From NCBI RefSeq assembly GCF_002019765.1, contig NZ_KV917380.1, forward strand, positions 1,383,858 to 1,447,857: DNA of 64,000 nt, in the 5' to 3' direction. Source of the stretch: Shouchella oshimensis. Lineage in GTDB: Bacteria; Bacillota; Bacilli; Bacillales; Bacillaceae_D. The position numbers and the translations under genes are program-made. Under the pieces are notes generated by a model. That model saw only the letters and a program-made list of their open reading frames with translations, had not been told where the DNA came from and did not search any database. Shown one piece after another: positions 56,845 to 63,935 of the stretch; the first letter of the stretch is position 1; every line of letters starts with the position of its first letter.

Positions 56845-57927
56845 TTGTCTCAAGAACAGTCGTCAGCCTTAACGTTTTCAATTGAAGACTCTGTTTGGCT
56901 TAATAAAGGACAACAAATTGATGAAATTATTGGCATGTCCCTCACACCGGAGATTTCAGTCAAACAAATGGACGATCATGTAACTATTCAAGGTGGTCTT
57001 CGTTTTATTGGCGAATACAAAATGGTAGAAGAAAGACAGGAAGAAGTGGAGGAAGAGGAAGACGCATCTTTTACTGCGTTAAGTGATTTTCGTCATTCGG
57101 GTGATATCCAGACTGAAACGGAAGCTGGAGCTGGTCAGATTGAACACGTGTTTCCAATTGATATTACGATTCCGATGACACGAATCCAACATGTTGATGA
57201 TATTTATGTAGAAGTATCAAGCTTTGATTATGATTTACCAGAAAAAAGCTGCATTCAATTAACAGCAGATGTGTCGATTAGTGGCGTGAAGTCAGACGAG
57301 CAACAGCGAGAAATTGAGTTAGTTGATTCTGAGTATAAGTACGATGTTGTTGAAGATGAAAATAATCCAGAGGAACCTGAACACACAGAGGAAACGGCTT
57401 TTCAATTTGAAGCGTATCAATCGGATGAAGCGGTTGAAGAAAGTCATTCATATGAAGAGCAGGGGACAGAAGAAAGATCAGAACAAGAACTTGCTTATCA
57501 TCAAAGGAGCATGGAGCAAGACATAGTAGAGACGTTTACCCAGTCCAATTGGCAAGAAGAAGAGACAGATGCAGAAGATATCGCTACTGTTAGTGATCTA
57601 AATGACGATGCATCTCCTGCTTATCGATATTTAACGGAAACCAGTGAAATGAACGAGCTTGAAGATCAAATTGATGAAGTCGAAGAAGTGACTGAGCAAG
57701 TAGGAAAGAGTGAACGTGACAGCGCTTCATACTTAACAAGCATGCTCCGAAACGAGGATGAACAGTTTTCTAGATGGAAAATGTGTATTATTCAAGAAGA
57801 AGAAACGCTACAGGTTATTGCCGATCGCTATGAACTTTCCACTAGTCAACTAACGCGTTACAACAACCTTGATAGTGAAAAAGTTGAAGAGGGGCAAATC
57901 ATTTATATACCTTCGAAAGGTAAGTAG
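56845..57927 (+). CDS. spoVID: Spore coat/morphogenesis protein SpoVID
   Basis: The 360-residue protein has a beta-rich N-terminal domain (about 1-150, ending in the ELTADVSISGV-like stretch), a Glu-rich low-complexity middle (about 155-300) and a C-terminal LysM-like domain (about 312-358: EETLQVIADRYEL, QLTRYNNLD, GQIIYIP). SpoVID drives encasement of the spore by the coat and binds SafA. It starts at TTG 56845 after GAAGGAGG. It is shorter than B. subtilis SpoVID (575 residues), mainly in the acidic middle. An unknown gene and ysxE follow in the same transcript. Confidence 0.92.
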   Translation: MSQEQSSALTFSIEDSVWLNKGQQIDEIIGMSLTPEISVKQMDDHVTIQGGLRFIGEYKMVEERQEEVEEEEDASFTALSDFRHSGDIQTETEAGAGQIEHVFPIDITIPMTRIQHVDDIYVEVSSFDYDLPEKSCIQLTADVSISGVKSDEQQREIELVDSEYKYDVVEDENNPEEPEHTEETAFQFEAYQSDEAVEESHSYEEQGTEERSEQELAYHQRSMEQDIVETFTQSNWQEEETDAEDIATVSDLNDDASPAYRYLTETSEMNELEDQIDEVEEVTEQVGKSERDSASYLTSMLRNEDEQFSRWKMCIIQEEETLQVIADRYELSTSQLTRYNNLDSEKVEEGQIIYIPSKGK

Positions 57928-57937
57928 GTGGTGACCA

Positions 57938-58816
57938 ATGATTGAGCGCATTAAAGAAGAGTATGGATTTAAACAGGCATCTTTAGAATCAAAGCATCAA
58001 CTGAACACAGAAAAAGGTGTAAAGCAAATCTGCTATTGGGAAGATGAGGCTTGTTTAAAGTGGCATATCGAGTGGCGTGACAACTGTAGTGTCGCGCCTT
58101 ATGTCATGATGAACCGGATGCTAAGAACCAATAAAGGCGCTGCTTATATAGAGAAGGATAAACAATTCATTAGCCTGCATGATAAAGTCCCTATTGAACA
58201 GCGTGAAGATCAAGAAGAAAAGCGGTGGGGAGAAGTTCTTGGTTTAATGATTCAGGCGGGTCGAAGAGATCAATCGACGTTCTCATTACCAAAAGAGGTA
58301 ATGGGTAATGATCCCATTTTGGAACAAGCCAATCGGGAACAAAGGCTGTTTTTTCAGACACTTTTTCAAGAAGGGAATCGTCGTCTAACGATGGCTAAGA
58401 AGCTAGCTAAGTCAGGAGAAATATCAGTACCTAAAATGGATTCATTTACAGAATTAACAGGCTCATTTCGCGGGCATATGCTAATCGTACAAGGAAGTGA
58501 AACGACCCCGGAGTACGGGTATCAGTCGTTTAAGACATTCCTTAAATCGTGGTATGAACGCAAAGGGGAAGCATCGTTACATGCGTTGATGAATGAATTG
58601 GATGAGAAGGCAACGTTGACAAGCAACGAACGAAAAGCCATTATGGCTACTGTTCTTATTCCTGATGAGCTAGATACACTATTGCAAGAGAGAGCGATTT
58701 CTAATGACCAACCCTTTTCTGACTTAATTGATCACCTAAAAAGAGAATGGGATAAAACGCAGTCGTTTGCTTCGGCATTAGCAAAATGGCTTGATGCAAA
58801 GAAGGTGACAACATGA
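57938..58816 (+). CDS. Unknown protein between spoVID and ysxE
   Basis: The product is 292 residues, soluble, without signal peptide or membrane segment, and is not recognised. It starts MIERIKEEYGF and has a beta-like N-terminal part (CYWEDEACLKWHIEWRDN), then a mostly helical, charged remainder (about 85-292). ATG 57938 is preceded by TAGGTGGTG, 10 bp after spoVID, and its stop overlaps ysxE's ATG by 4 bp. This tight packing argues for a shared role in coat assembly. B. subtilis has no gene at this place as far as I recall. Confidence 0.8.
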   Translation: MIERIKEEYGFKQASLESKHQLNTEKGVKQICYWEDEACLKWHIEWRDNCSVAPYVMMNRMLRTNKGAAYIEKDKQFISLHDKVPIEQREDQEEKRWGEVLGLMIQAGRRDQSTFSLPKEVMGNDPILEQANREQRLFFQTLFQEGNRRLTMAKKLAKSGEISVPKMDSFTELTGSFRGHMLIVQGSETTPEYGYQSFKTFLKSWYERKGEASLHALMNELDEKATLTSNERKAIMATVLIPDELDTLLQERAISNDQPFSDLIDHLKREWDKTQSFASALAKWLDAKKVTT

Positions 58817-59817
58817 ATCCGTTTATAGAGGCCTTGCTTTATTATTACGATTTAACAGCCTTAACGGTTGAGCAACAAGGGAATATTTATAGAATTGAAA
58901 CTGAACATGGAAACTTTGCATTAAAACAATCGTCAATGGACCCTGTTCAAGCTGAAGAATGTATTCATGCGATAAGGAAGCTATCACGATTAAACTATCC
59001 ATCATTCGTTCCGATTATTCCGACTAAATTTGGGGAATATTCGTTATTTGTATCTGGGAAGACGTATTATTTAATGCCTTGGATTGAGACGCAGGAATAC
59101 CAAGGAAGGCAATCAATCGAAGAGTTAATGGCTGATTCAATTGGAACAATTCATCGAATGACAGTTAAATCCCAACCAGCTTCGAAAGAAGTGATTGATC
59201 AATCGTGTGAACGCCTTCTGTCCCGATGGGAGATGCACTCGCTCGAATTATCTCGCTTTGCGGATGAAGCAGAAGTAAAAGCGTATTTATCACCATTTGA
59301 ACTGTCATTTCTTACACATTTTAAAATGTTTGAGCAATTAGCAGATGAAGCAACAACTTATCTTGAGAAATGGTACAAGACTACCATTGATAAAGGGAGT
59401 TACCGCAGTGTGTTAACCCATGGTCGTTTATCTCGGCATCATTTGTTGCACGCGACGAGTGGGCAACCTTTATTGATTAATTTTGAGCGTGCAAGTTTAG
59501 ACACACCAGCTCGGGATTTAGCGACATTGTGTAGACACGGTTTCCCGCACTCCTTATGGGATGAAAATGAAGTCTTACGCTGGTTCGCTAGATACGAACA
59601 GCATTTGCCCCTTGTTACGGCGGAAAAATATTTAGTAAGTGCGTATCTGCTCTTTCCTGAACCGGTCTACTATACGATGATGGATTATCGAAAAGGTGGA
59701 AATGAGTTAGAACTAACGCAAAAACTTGAAAAACGTATTTATGCGCTGCGTAAAGTGCAGCGATTTGTTCCGAAAATTGTTCCTCAAGAAGAAGAGGAAG
59801 CAAGTAATCAGTCTTAA
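58813..59817 (+). CDS. ysxE: Spore coat-associated protein YsxE (CotS family, kinase-like)
   Basis: This 334-residue protein has the aminoglycoside phosphotransferase-like fold of the CotS/CotI/YsxE coat proteins. The N-lobe holds FALKQSS (lysine near 39) and the hinge YYLMPWIE. The usual catalytic HGD..xxN loop appears as THGRLSRHH (about 199) and the metal-binding Asp as LINFERA (about 221), so catalytic residues seem to be lost. It is translationally coupled to the unknown gene upstream. The YsxE position next to spoVID and valS matches B. subtilis. Confidence 0.88.
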   Translation: MNPFIEALLYYYDLTALTVEQQGNIYRIETEHGNFALKQSSMDPVQAEECIHAIRKLSRLNYPSFVPIIPTKFGEYSLFVSGKTYYLMPWIETQEYQGRQSIEELMADSIGTIHRMTVKSQPASKEVIDQSCERLLSRWEMHSLELSRFADEAEVKAYLSPFELSFLTHFKMFEQLADEATTYLEKWYKTTIDKGSYRSVLTHGRLSRHHLLHATSGQPLLINFERASLDTPARDLATLCRHGFPHSLWDENEVLRWFARYEQHLPLVTAEKYLVSAYLLFPEPVYYTMMDYRKGGNELELTQKLEKRIYALRKVQRFVPKIVPQEEEEASNQS

Positions 59818-59838: not shown

Positions 59839-59955
59839 GGATTTTACACTTGATAAAAAGAAAAATATGGCATTAAATAAAGAGGTATACGCTTAGTTCG
59901 GGACGATTCGGGTATGCTTAAAGTAATGGTAGATAAAAGAGAGTAGGTGTATAAG

Positions 59956-60642
59956 ATGGAGAAAAATGGCTCTGAAGCACTTGAAGAAAAAAGGAAAAAG
60001 CTTACAAATGAAAAGCAAGTTTTATTTGAAGAAGCCATTGACTATATGGAAGCTGCTAGCTTTTCACAACGGAAACGAAATCAGATTCTTCACCAAATAC
60101 TAGATGAATGGTTGTACGCTGAAAAAAATGCAATTGATTTAGAGCTGAATCAAAAGAACATTTACACATACTGCGAAAAGCGAACAAAAAACGTTCCAAA
60201 AATGTCGACCTCATTAAAAATGGCATTGTTGCTAAGAGTGGGTTTACTTATCCTAGTTGTCTATTTTGTGTTACAGTTCATTATTCAAATGGCAGGCTTG
60301 TTAGATTCAAATATTCAGGCATCCTCTTTTTCCTTTTTACCTATTATTCTTTTAGGAAGTGTGGGCTTGTTCGGTTTTTATTTATATGACAAAGCTTCGA
60401 CAAAAGAAAAAGCCGTTATGTGGAGAGGGATTGGCATTGTAACGCAATTAACGGCATTTCTTCTGTTTTTTGCGAGCATGCGGTTGTGGGACGGTATTTT
60501 AACAATTCGCTTAACCCTTATCAATTCAACAGTTATCGCGATTTTTATGGTTGTCTTTTTTCTTGTTGCAGGTAAATGGAAAGATCAGTTAGAAGAAAAA
60601 GAACTGGAAAAAGATCAAAATGATGTGATTCTGTTTTCTTAA
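59956..60642 (+). CDS. Uncharacterised membrane protein with cytoplasmic helical domain
   Basis: The product is 228 residues. The first ~85 residues are charged and helical (EALEEKRKKLTNEKQVLFEEAIDY is an example of the pattern), followed by four likely membrane segments (about 88-112, 125-145, 155-175, 180-205) and an acidic, lysine-rich tail. The layout recalls the DUF1129 type, but this is only an impression. ATG 59956 is preferred, with TAGGTG upstream; GTG 59947 is in frame. It stands alone between two terminating or divergent units. No function is proposed. Confidence 0.7.
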   Translation: MEKNGSEALEEKRKKLTNEKQVLFEEAIDYMEAASFSQRKRNQILHQILDEWLYAEKNAIDLELNQKNIYTYCEKRTKNVPKMSTSLKMALLLRVGLLILVVYFVLQFIIQMAGLLDSNIQASSFSFLPIILLGSVGLFGFYLYDKASTKEKAVMWRGIGIVTQLTAFLLFFASMRLWDGILTIRLTLINSTVIAIFMVVFFLVAGKWKDQLEEKELEKDQNDVILFS

Positions 60643-60654
60643 AGAAGGCAGACA

Positions 60655-60867
60655 TTACACGATACCGAAAAATAAGCAAATGAAAAAGACAATAATAAGC
60701 GTTAATAAAAATAAATCTACAGCTGTTGGAAGAAGTAATGTACGAATAAGCTGAAACACCAAAATGGGCGGTAGACATTGAATACAAATAAATTTAAAGC
60801 GTCCACACTTTTTAGGTGGACCAGGTGGCGGACATGGTGGCGGAAAGCCTTGAAATCGCTTAGTCAT
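60655..60867 (-). CDS. Small Pro/Cys-rich membrane protein under a sigma-K promoter
   Basis: This 70-residue protein starts MTKRFQG, then has a proline-rich stretch PPPCPPPGPP, a lysine and cysteine part (KKCGRFKFICIQC) and a hydrophobic C-terminal half (about 34-70) suited to one or two membrane passes. The ATG is preceded by GAAAGGAGG at the right distance, and about 33 bp upstream lies a full sigma-K promoter. The sigma-K signal, size and Pro/Cys content suggest a late mother-cell product, perhaps coat or outer-membrane associated. Not recognised by name. Confidence 0.75.
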   Translation of the reverse strand: MTKRFQGFPPPCPPPGPPKKCGRFKFICIQCLPPILVFQLIRTLLLPTAVDLFLLTLIIVFFICLFFGIV

Positions 60868-60899
60868 AGCAACCTTCCTCCTTTCGATGATCGTTACCG

Positions 60900-60926
60900 T
60901 ATTGTATGCAAGTAGCCTAAAACTGT
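60900..60926 (-). promoter_or_regulatory. Sigma-K promoter of the 70-residue protein gene
   Basis: On the reverse strand, AC (-35 core, 60926-60925), exactly 16 bp, then CATACAATA (60908-60900), matching the sigma-K pattern AC-N16-CATANNNTA. Expected start near 60893, giving a leader of about 26 nt. Confidence 0.65.
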
Positions 60927-61013: not shown

Positions 61014-61262
61014 AGATCCTATATACAAGCTATGATCAGGAGGAGTAAAGAAACTGCTTCTAGAAGAGAGGAAGGACCTTGGCTGAAAGTCTTTCTAGAA
61101 AGCAAGTACTTGAAAGTCGCCTGTAAGCTTTTCTGTTGAACCATTTAGTAAACAGAAACGGTTTCGAGCCGTTAGTCGATTTGAGTTGCACAGGCTAAGT
61201 CTGTGAACAAAGGTGGCACCGCGAACAATCCCTTCGTCCTTTGAGACGGAAGGGTTTTTTTG
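61014..61262 (+). ncRNA. T-box leader, valine-type (GTC specifier), upstream of valS
   Basis: Stem I has GGAGTAA near 61040, a distal loop CTTGGCTG, and the specifier GTC at 61116-61118 in the context TGAAA-GTC-GCC. The T-box sequence AAGGTGGCACCGCG lies at about 61210-61223. The terminator CCCTTCGTCC/GGACGAAGGG-like stem (61230-61254, small mismatch) ends in a T run. Uncharged tRNA-Val would turn valS on. Confidence 0.92.
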
Positions 61263-61292: not shown

Positions 61293-63935
61293 ATGACGGA
61301 GCAGCATACAATGCCAACAAAATATGATCCAAATGAAACAGAAAAGAAATGGTACGACTATTGGAAAAAAGGCGAGTTCTTTAAACCGACAGACGATCCA
61401 TCAAAAGAACCATATTCCATTGTCATTCCACCGCCAAACGTAACCGGAAAGCTCCACCTTGGTCACGCATGGGACGCAACCTTGCAAGATATACTTGCAC
61501 GAACCAAACGGATGCAAGGTTATGACACACTGTGGCTTCCAGGAATGGATCATGCAGGAATTGCCACTCAAGCTAAAGTAGAAGCACGCTTAAAAGAACA
61601 AGGGATGTCAAAACATGATCTTGGGCGTGAAGGCTTTATTGAGAAGTCTTGGGAATGGAAAGAAGAATATGCTAGTTTTATTCGGAAGCAATGGGCAAAA
61701 GTCGGTATTTCCGTTGATTATTCACGTGAACGATTTACATTGGATTCGGGTTTATCAGATGCTGTTACGGAAGTATTTGTATCGCTTTATGAGCAAGGTC
61801 TCATCTATCGTGGGGAATATATTATTAATTGGGATCCTCATACGAAAACAGCTCTCTCTGACATAGAAGTTATTCACCAAGATGTTCAAGGGGCGTTCTA
61901 TCATATGGAGTACCCATTGGTAGACGGTACTGGTTCAATTAAAATCGCAACCACACGACCGGAAACAATGCTTGGTGATACAGCTGTAGCTGTTCATCCT
62001 AAAGATGAACGCTATAGTCACCTTGTTGGCAAAATGGTGAAGCTACCGATTATTGGACGCGAAATTCCGATTGTAGCAGACGAGTACGTTGATCGTGAAT
62101 TTGGTTCGGGTGCAGTGAAAATTACACCAGCTCATGATCCGAATGACTTTGAGATCGGAAACCGTCACGATCTACCGCGTATTCTCGTTATGAATGAAGA
62201 TGGAACCATGAATGAAAATGCTGGCAAGTATCAAGGGCTAGATCGTTTTGATTGTCGTAAGCAGATCGTTAAAGACTTACAGGAGTCAGGTGTATTATTT
62301 GAAATTGAAGAGCACCTACACTCGGTTGGTCACTCTGAGCGTAGTGGCGTAGTGGTTGAACCGTATTTATCAATGCAGTGGTTTGTGAAAATGCAGCCCC
62401 TTGCAGAAGAGTCTCTCAAAATGCAGGAGCATGAAGACACAAAAGTCACCTTTGTGCCTGAACGTTTTGAAGGTACCTACACACGCTGGATGGAAAACAT
62501 TCGCGACTGGTGTATTTCTAGACAGCTTTGGTGGGGTCATCGAATTCCAGCTTGGTATCATAAAGAGACGAATGAGCTTTATGTCGGAAAAGAAGCACCT
62601 CAAGATCCAGAAAACTGGGTACAAGATGAAGATGTATTAGATACGTGGTTTTCTTCAGCATTATGGCCTTTTTCAACAATGGGCTGGCCAAATGAGGATG
62701 CAGAGGATTTAGAGCGCTATTACCCAACGGATGTGCTTGTAACAGGCTACGACATAATTTATTTCTGGGTATCTCGTATGATTTTCCAAGGAAAAGCGTT
62801 TACGAACAAAAGACCGTTCAAAGATGTACTTATTCACGGACTCATTCGTGATGCGGATGGGAAGAAAATGAGTAAATCCCTAGGAAACGGTGTTGATCCG
62901 CAAGAGGTAATTGATAAATACGGAGCCGATTCATTGCGCTTTTTCCTAGCGACTGGAAGTACTCCAGGGAATGACCTCCGTTTTTATTGGGAGAAAGTCG
63001 AGTCTACTTGGAATTTCGGTAACAAGATATGGAATGCTTCTCGATTTGCTTTAATGAATATGGAGGGGTTAAGTTACGATGAAATTGATATAACGAAAGA
63101 AAAAACGATAGCTGATAAATGGATTTTAACACGATTAGGTCAAACAGCAGAGACGGTTACGCGCTTGCTGGATAGTTACGAATTTGGTGAAGCTGGACGT
63201 ACGCTTTATTCGTTTATTTGGGATGACGTTTGTGACTGGTACATTGAAATGGCGAAACTAACTCTATACGGGGAAGATGAAGAGGCAAAAGCGACGACTC
63301 GTTCCGTTCTCGCTTATGTGCTTGATCATACGATGCGTATGCTTCATCCATTTATGCCGTTTATCACTGAGGAAATTTGGCAGTACTTGCCGCATCAAGG
63401 AGAGTCCATTACGGTTGCAGAATGGCCGCTCTTTACAAGTGAATTCTATGATCTAAAGGCACTTCAGGATATGGAAACATTAAAAACACTCATTCGTTCT
63501 ATTCGTAATACACGCTCGGAGCTAAATGTACCAATGAGTAAACAAATTGAATTGTTTATTCGCCCAGCAAATGACGAAACGAAAGCTTGTTTAGAAACCG
63601 GCTCTGCTTACATCGAAAAGTTTGCCAATCCGAGTAAGCTTGTCATTGCCAATGATTTAGAAACGCCAGAAAAAGCAATGTCTCATGCTTTAACTGGAAT
63701 GGAGATTTTCATGCCGTTAGCAGGACTTCTTGATTTAGACGCAGAAATTGCACGGTTGGAAAAAGAAAAAGAAAAATTAACAAAAGAAGTGGAGCGTATT
63801 GAAAAGAAGCTCAGTAACCAAGGGTTTGTTGCCAAAGCGCCTGCACAAGTTGTAGAGGAAGAAAAGAAGAAAAAAGCAGATTATGAGTCAAAACGAACCA
63901 TTGTTATGGAACGAATTGCAGAATTAAGTGCATAG
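61293..63935 (+). CDS. valS: Valyl-tRNA synthetase
   Basis: This 880-residue class I synthetase has the HIGH-type motif [15 protein letters not shown] (about 44-57), the editing domain (about 190-340, [17 protein letters not shown]), the KMSKS motif in [10 protein letters not shown] (about 525), an anticodon-binding domain and a C-terminal coiled coil (about 812-875). ATG 61293 follows AAAGGAGG; the upstream frame to 61260 overlaps the T-box terminator. Its expression is set by the valine T-box leader. Confidence 0.97.

Follow-up and report, generated by a model that had tools for sequence, protein, structure and literature searches.

A small predicted membrane hairpin protein with a conserved sigma-K-type promoter at the ysxE-valS locus of spore-forming Bacillales

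SpoVM is a tiny mother-cell membrane protein that consists of one amphipathic helix and is made from a sigma-E type promoter. Class II holins are likewise small membrane proteins, with two helices, and are made late. Closer to the locus considered here, YsxE and CotS belong to one spore-kinase family, and ysxE is reported to form an operon with spoVID under sigma-E (available part of PMC2860764). The accessible portion of PMC12700454 gives ysxE as a sporulation hit in Bacillus anthracis and not in Bacillus subtilis. The sigma-K motif, as it appears in the available part of PMC517825, pairs a 5-base -35 element with a 10-base -10 block, 15 ± 1 apart.

The window analysed here, a stretch of 64,000 nucleotides from Shouchella oshimensis, contains a small gene located between ysxE and valS. 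The gene is kept at this one locus, with a sigma-K-type promoter, by nearly all Bacillales that form spores, and decades of sporulation genetics should have found it. Its family seems to be a component of spore construction that has been overlooked, and small size seems to have hidden it from curated families. It is a candidate marker for the capacity of Bacillales to sporulate, and a handle on YsxE.

The small gene, its family and its conserved core

The coding sequence occupies positions 60655 to 60867 of the minus strand, begins with ATG and encodes a 70-residue product (MTKRFQGFPPPCPPPGPPKKCGRFKFICIQCLPPILVFQLIRTLLLPTAVDLFLLTLIIVFFICLFFGIV). Upstream on the same strand lie the Shine-Dalgarno sequence GAAAGGAGG (60877 to 60885), a sigma-K type -10 element, CATACAATA (60900 to 60908), and, 16 bases from it, the -35 element AC (60925 to 60926); the ATG is 32 bases from this AC-N16-CATACAATA promoter (60926 to 60900). 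Reverse-strand frame and promoter are thus both where the preliminary description of this DNA had put them, and the protein has the Pro/Cys-rich N-terminus and hydrophobic C-terminal half that were claimed for it.

Conservation outside the strain, on which the preliminary description had made its reading depend, was found widely. Within its own genome the protein matches itself alone, and a single-sequence search found a homologue in 40/41 genomes of its GTDB family, the sole miss being G032, which belongs to the same genus and measures 2.6 Mb. A profile built from 36 family-level homologues (A1) was positive in 367/397 genomes of the order, mostly with a single match per genome. One of the 367 is doubtful (G061, E 0.004, three stops); the identities of 10 of the 30 misses were deduced from numbering gaps, with which the sigK and spoIVA lists agree. 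A broader profile of 62 rows (A2) matched 137/398 genomes of the class. At the level of the phylum 14/249 genomes were matched at E 0.001, of which three were Bacillales already counted and the other 11 weak. Among 80 named loci on GTDB contigs, retained from 275 confirmed ones, carriers include Sutcliffiella horikoshii, Geobacillus, Parageobacillus, Anoxybacillus, Cytobacillus, Rossellomorea, Bacillus methanolicus, B. pumilus, B. altitudinis and B. safensis. One spoIVA-positive genome (G140, locus L104) has an in-frame TAG inside the family match, a possible pseudogene or sequencing error.

Searches for known relatives found no curated family for the protein, in agreement with its earlier description as unnamed. 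The window protein had no Pfam or NCBIfam match even at E 10, and the family had no sequence relative in the PDB at E 1. Its relatives gave just scattered weak Pfam or NCBIfam matches to unrelated families, the best of them a fatty acid hydroxylase family (E 7e-4, 4/36 relatives), followed by PRIMA1 (E 0.001, 1/62) and Promethin (E 0.001, 1/36); the commonest was common to 5/36 relatives, with a best E of 0.032. No known coat family appeared for the window protein at E 10 or among the weak matches of its relatives. The AFWIR-motif membrane protein family NF052278 proved to be noise, matched by 1/62 members at E 0.018, with 0/7 genomes above the curated cut-off and 0/8 weak matches at the small-gene locus. 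A search of solved structures returned four matches, all with E > 6 and none useful, and a plasmid collection gave no match.

The protein had also been described as not named in model species. That stands as far as Pfam, NCBIfam and text searches go, which found no name, and is less secure for B. subtilis 168, which is not among the 80 named loci. Text searches of open-access literature, in its main texts, turned up no mention of a gene lying between ysxE and valS, and PMC3533761, in its available part, lists ysxE and spoVID among Bacilli genes and names no such neighbour. A B. subtilis locus tag or 'hypothetical protein' entry for the family may well exist.

Residue conservation was counted in 119 non-redundant loci drawn from 246 examined, of which 245 matched the profile and 244 could be given a start codon. 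A locus was dropped if it shared at least 80% protein identity or at least 60% ungapped upstream identity with another that had been retained. Loci that were weak or secondary (L049-L051, L275, L276), valS-only loci (L240-L257) and those from L278 onward were set aside before the count. The conserved part is a hairpin core, P-x3-FQ-x2-RT-x3-P[TS]-x2-D, and not the Pro/Cys block. In the window its portion FQxxRTxxxPTxxD spans codons F38 to D51 (minus strand, 60715 to 60756). R42, P47 and D51 were present in all 119 sequences, scored with a pattern that demands them and that every sequence fitted. The remaining counts were 116 for P34, 115 for Q39, 112 for T43, 110 for F38 and 94 for Q30.

AlphaFold2, run with 27 rows, predicted a pair of hydrophobic helices with only a short turn between them: helix 1 at residues 21-45 (minus strand, 60733 to 60807), a three-residue turn at 46-48 and helix 2 at residues 49-67 (60667 to 60723). 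Residues 31-60 had a mean pLDDT of 93-94, whereas that of residues 1-20 was about 50; the pTM was 0.53. The invariant or near-invariant Q39, R42, P47 and D51 cluster around the predicted hairpin tip, where R and D flank the turn.

The Pro/Cys block, which the preliminary description treated as the defining feature, turned out to be confined to the genus, with Cys variable even there, whereas the hairpin core is conserved. In the remaining genera of the taxonomic family the tails are rich in His or are Pro-rich in another way, and outside the family many genera have 'NPYxLPPWLR', tail variation that rules out a defining identity as a Pro/Cys-rich coat protein. Three loci of the same family (L036, L037 and L041) have tails with runs of 4-8 consecutive His, which may bind metal.

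Co-occurrence with sporulation genes

With spoIVA (TIGR02836) as the marker of spore-formers, the 397 genomes of the order comprised 382 positive and 15 negative ones. The small-gene family was present in 367/382 spoIVA-positive genomes (366 without G061) and in 0/15 negative genomes, and the same 15 also had no sigK match. These 15 sit in taxonomic families f6, f13, f25 and f35, each of which has spoIVA-positive carriers too; to judge from the genome lists, at least four independent losses would fit this pattern.

The sigma factor gene itself was sought in 33 carriers, three of which (G068, G077 and G158) had no sigK above cut-off and gave sigma-E-like or split matches instead. In G158 (C2:105346-122486) the sigK match falls in two halves about 16 kb apart on one contig, and in G068 (C23:187056-228104) the halves, again on one contig, are about 40 kb apart; this is the pattern that a skin-like element interrupting sigK would produce.

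In the class sample, 266/398 genomes were spoIVA-positive and 135/137 carriers of the family were among them, the overlap being counted by reading the two genome lists against each other. Three of the 135 are weak (G531, G571 and G590, family f80, E 0.002-0.007). A spoIVA-negative genome, G769, has a broken copy at the usual place, here hemL-valS (L285): the match stops at profile position 32, and the Shine-Dalgarno sequence and start are kept. A spoIVA-positive genome of the same genus (G464, L261) has a whole copy, and the copy of G769, which lacks spoIVA, is a gene in decay. A match in G663 (E 2e-4) had none of the family's neighbours and was set down to chance. The gene is therefore absent where sporulation genes have been lost, with 0/15 in the order and a remnant in G769, and its link to spore formation is strongly supported. 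This agrees with the original suggestion of a sporulation-linked membrane protein, for which the spoIVA co-occurrence and the AlphaFold2 helices both speak.

The converse does not hold throughout. Fifteen spoIVA-positive genomes of the order were without the family (16 including G061), namely G032, G057, G194 and twelve of family f22, ten of them from genus g28 and two from g61; in the class, 131/266 spoIVA-positive genomes, for instance in family f50, had no match. These absences rule out an indispensable core sporulation gene. Four of these genomes, G057, G194 and the two of g61, have ysxE adjoining valS (L241, L254-L256) with no family member found between, so the small gene can be dispensed with and YsxE can occur in its absence. 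In G032 and the g28 genomes the 1.5 kb upstream of valS showed no ysxE. It is speculation, but if genus g28 is the B. cereus group, absence there would fit partial redundancy.

A holin-like pore that lyses the mother cell to free the spore would suit, in outline, the small size, predicted hairpin and sigma-K-type promoter, all of which recall a class II holin. However, holins are fast-changing, and here R, P and D are invariant at a fixed locus; the members printed have no long charged C-terminal tail, and the spoIVA-positive genera g28 and g61 do without the family. We regard such a pore as improbable.

Promoter and locus

The pattern AC-N16-CATANNNTA occurs 102 times in the genome, against 139 times for a backwards control, so the motif alone carries no weight. 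The promoter was judged to be real because it is conserved across homologous loci. In the 119 loci, where start codons were chosen by Shine-Dalgarno score and some upstream windows may be shifted, CATANNNTA was found between -110 and -20 in 73, compared with a mean of 6.7 and a maximum of 14 in 200 dinucleotide shuffles and with 15 for the backwards motif. Of these 73 -10 boxes, 48 begin between -50 and -36; 24 have AC at a distance of N16 and 33 have it at N17, any other spacing from 10 to 23 being found in at most six each. The full AC-N16/17-CATANNNTA promoter was present between -110 and -20 in 58/119 loci, against a mean of 0.7 and a maximum of 3 in 100 shuffles. Control spacings came slightly above shuffle maxima of 3, with AC at N19-20 in seven loci and at N12-13 in four. 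The -10 box is found in 11/12 loci of the genus and 33/40 of the taxonomic family; its exact form is missing from 46/119 loci, including one of the genus, and many near matches, seen by eye, were left uncounted.

A sigma-E-type ATA at N13-16 was found in 3/119 loci, equal to its shuffle maximum, so that the -35 element does not fit sigma-E control. The distance of N16/17 between AC and CATA is compatible with the spacing given in the available part of PMC517825. With a conserved, properly spaced AC/CATANNNTA whose -35 is of the sigma-K and not the sigma-E type, sigma-K control of the small gene is, as judged from sequence, strongly supported, and the promoter assignment of the preliminary description holds up. 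That the frame and its promoter are both chance occurrences draws what strength it has from the lack of enrichment of the pattern by itself in the genome. Nevertheless, conservation rules out a chance frame and a chance promoter match alike: with homologues across family and order, the tracking of spoIVA, the constant locus and the conserved promoter, the probability of this explanation is negligible.

In the window, spoVID (56845 to 57927, plus strand; TIGR02907, 294 bits over cut-off) and ysxE (58813 to 59817, plus strand; TIGR02904, 312.7 bits over cut-off), which encodes the kinase-like spore coat protein, lie on one side of the small gene. On the other are the T-box leader of valS (61023 to 61244, plus strand; RF00230, 134.6 bits) and valS itself (61293 to 63935, plus strand, start by Shine-Dalgarno), which diverges from the small gene. 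The name valS is that of the preliminary description and fits the T-box. Across the 119 loci spoVID was present in 72, ysxE in 103 and valS in 106, and every locus had at least one of the three within about 1.5-3 kb on each side, which extends to the whole set the placement at spoVID-ysxE/valS first noted in this strain. The small gene lay between the spoVID/ysxE and valS sides in 98/98 loci that show both. Beyond the order, 19/21 loci had at least one of hemL, spoVID, ysxE and valS, the exceptions being the weak matches L275 and L276.

Two further plus-strand frames belong to this region. One of 292 codons (57938 to 58816) lies between spoVID and ysxE and has no Pfam or NCBIfam match; it occurs beside ysxE in many relatives (tblastn) and is apparently a further unnamed member of the spoVID-ysxE cluster. 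The other, of 231 codons (59947 to 60642), lies between ysxE and the small gene, so that ysxE is not the immediate neighbour here. It probably encodes a membrane protein (weak DUF1129, E 0.005) and, in the loci searched, occurs in most of the genus and a few of the sister genus.

A sigma-K-type promoter of its own serves the small gene, on the strand that does not carry ysxE; across the loci the gene's strand is opposite to that of valS in 106/106 and to that of ysxE in 103/103. The last count would suit a promoter that matters as a source of RNA opposite ysxE, the reading frame being incidental. Yet residues are invariant across the order, and a separate 231-codon frame stands between the gene and ysxE in most of the genus. 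Synonymous and non-synonymous codon changes numbered 13/1, 12/1, 30/4 and 33/15 in the four closest relatives and were about equal in seven more distant loci of the genus; the excess in close relatives (30/4 and 13/1), which the more distant ones do not share, again points to a translated frame. We consider the RNA explanation very improbable.

Possible role and comparison with known systems

Our preferred, tentative reading, to which we would give a probability of roughly 0.4, is that the gene encodes a sigma-K-controlled mother-cell membrane hairpin that probably sits in the outer forespore membrane and works together with the coat module of SpoVID and YsxE. Sigma-K RNA polymerase would read this sporulation-specific gene in the mother cell, late in sporulation. 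The product would be a membrane protein of some 55-85 residues, with a variable basic tail, often Pro- or His-rich, followed by the helical hairpin. Sigma-K acts in the mother cell, and the product should therefore reach the mother-cell membrane or the outer forespore membrane. By the positive-inside rule the tail, being basic, should remain on the cytoplasmic side in the mother cell, which would place the R/P/D turn at the far side of the membrane. The hairpin may thus insert into the outer forespore membrane with its tail on the mother-cell (coat) side, and would there tether, or help to assemble, the coat layer of SpoVID and YsxE. We favour such a tether or assembly factor because both of these neighbours are proteins of the coat, which covers the outer forespore membrane.

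Homology, co-occurrence with sporulation, the conserved sigma-K-type promoter, the conserved locus and the two predicted helices were computed; from them we infer mother-cell expression, membrane identity, topology and the link to YsxE. That link draws on neighbourhood, which is not interaction, and it is weakened by the separate promoter of the small gene on the other strand, ysxE being reported in a sigma-E operon with spoVID. A sigma-K-controlled membrane hairpin could serve some other late process with no tie to YsxE, the shared locus being frozen gene order; candidates are stability of the spore outer membrane, a small subunit of a membrane complex, and maturation of cortex or core. The same sporulation and sigma-K evidence suits this alternative, the invariant residues fall within the predicted hairpin, its helices and turn, and not in the tail, and frozen order is possible since valS, which has no sporulation role, is as constant a neighbour (106/119). 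Against it stand two weak clostridial matches beside CotS-type kinases, which would be unexpected from a frozen valS order, although the matches are uncertain. It is a credible explanation, and between a tether of the coat layer and another late membrane process we put the odds at about even.

The clostridial matches (G992/L279, E 1.7e-5, and G924/L284, E 2.1e-4, per genome) are hairpin-like frames of 50-60 residues directly beside CotS-family genes. These neighbours scored 119, 67 and 163 bits against TIGR02906, all below its cut-off of 172.7; the window YsxE scored 116 bits. At a very weak match in the class (G531/L287, family f80, E 0.007) the distance to a CotS-like gene is about 2 kb. Five other weak loci outside the class had no CotS-like gene among their largest frames, as judged by eye. 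The clostridial frames as distant relatives are suggestive only. In family f110 (phylum, outside Bacilli), four loci (L278, L281-L283) show weak similarity (E 1e-4 to 6e-6) in a short, hairpin-like frame that is flanked by genes resembling pnp and mraZ; since these frames lack the conserved Gln and Arg, they were not counted as members. Locus L280 keeps Q, R, P, T and D and adjoins genes that, by eye, resemble those for RNase HII and YraN.

A bolder version of the coat-module reading, which we hold to be doubtful, makes the family an overlooked ancient component of the endospore envelope and the integral-membrane partner of YsxE/CotS kinases, with the Arg-Pro-Asp hairpin as their docking site at the membrane. 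The family would then have been present in the ancestor of many spore-forming Bacilli, with a diverged form beside CotS-type kinases in some Clostridia.

Set against the described systems, the small gene differs from class II holins in its invariant residues and fixed locus; no lytic cassette was seen alongside it and no family matches it. With SpoVM-like proteins its product shares tiny size, membrane association, here predicted, and sporulation specificity, but it has two predicted helices and a sigma-K-type promoter and no match in curated libraries. The AC/CATANNNTA promoter and spore-former distribution are those of the coat and mother-cell genes of the sigma-K regulon; valS and ysxE are absent from the main text of the regulon paper (PMC517825), and the small-gene product has no Pfam or NCBIfam match. 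Locus and spore-former distribution are common to the small gene and the YsxE/CotS kinases (TIGR02904, TIGR02906; PMC2860764). These have a kinase fold, whereas the small gene encodes a non-homologous, predicted membrane hairpin with a promoter of its own.
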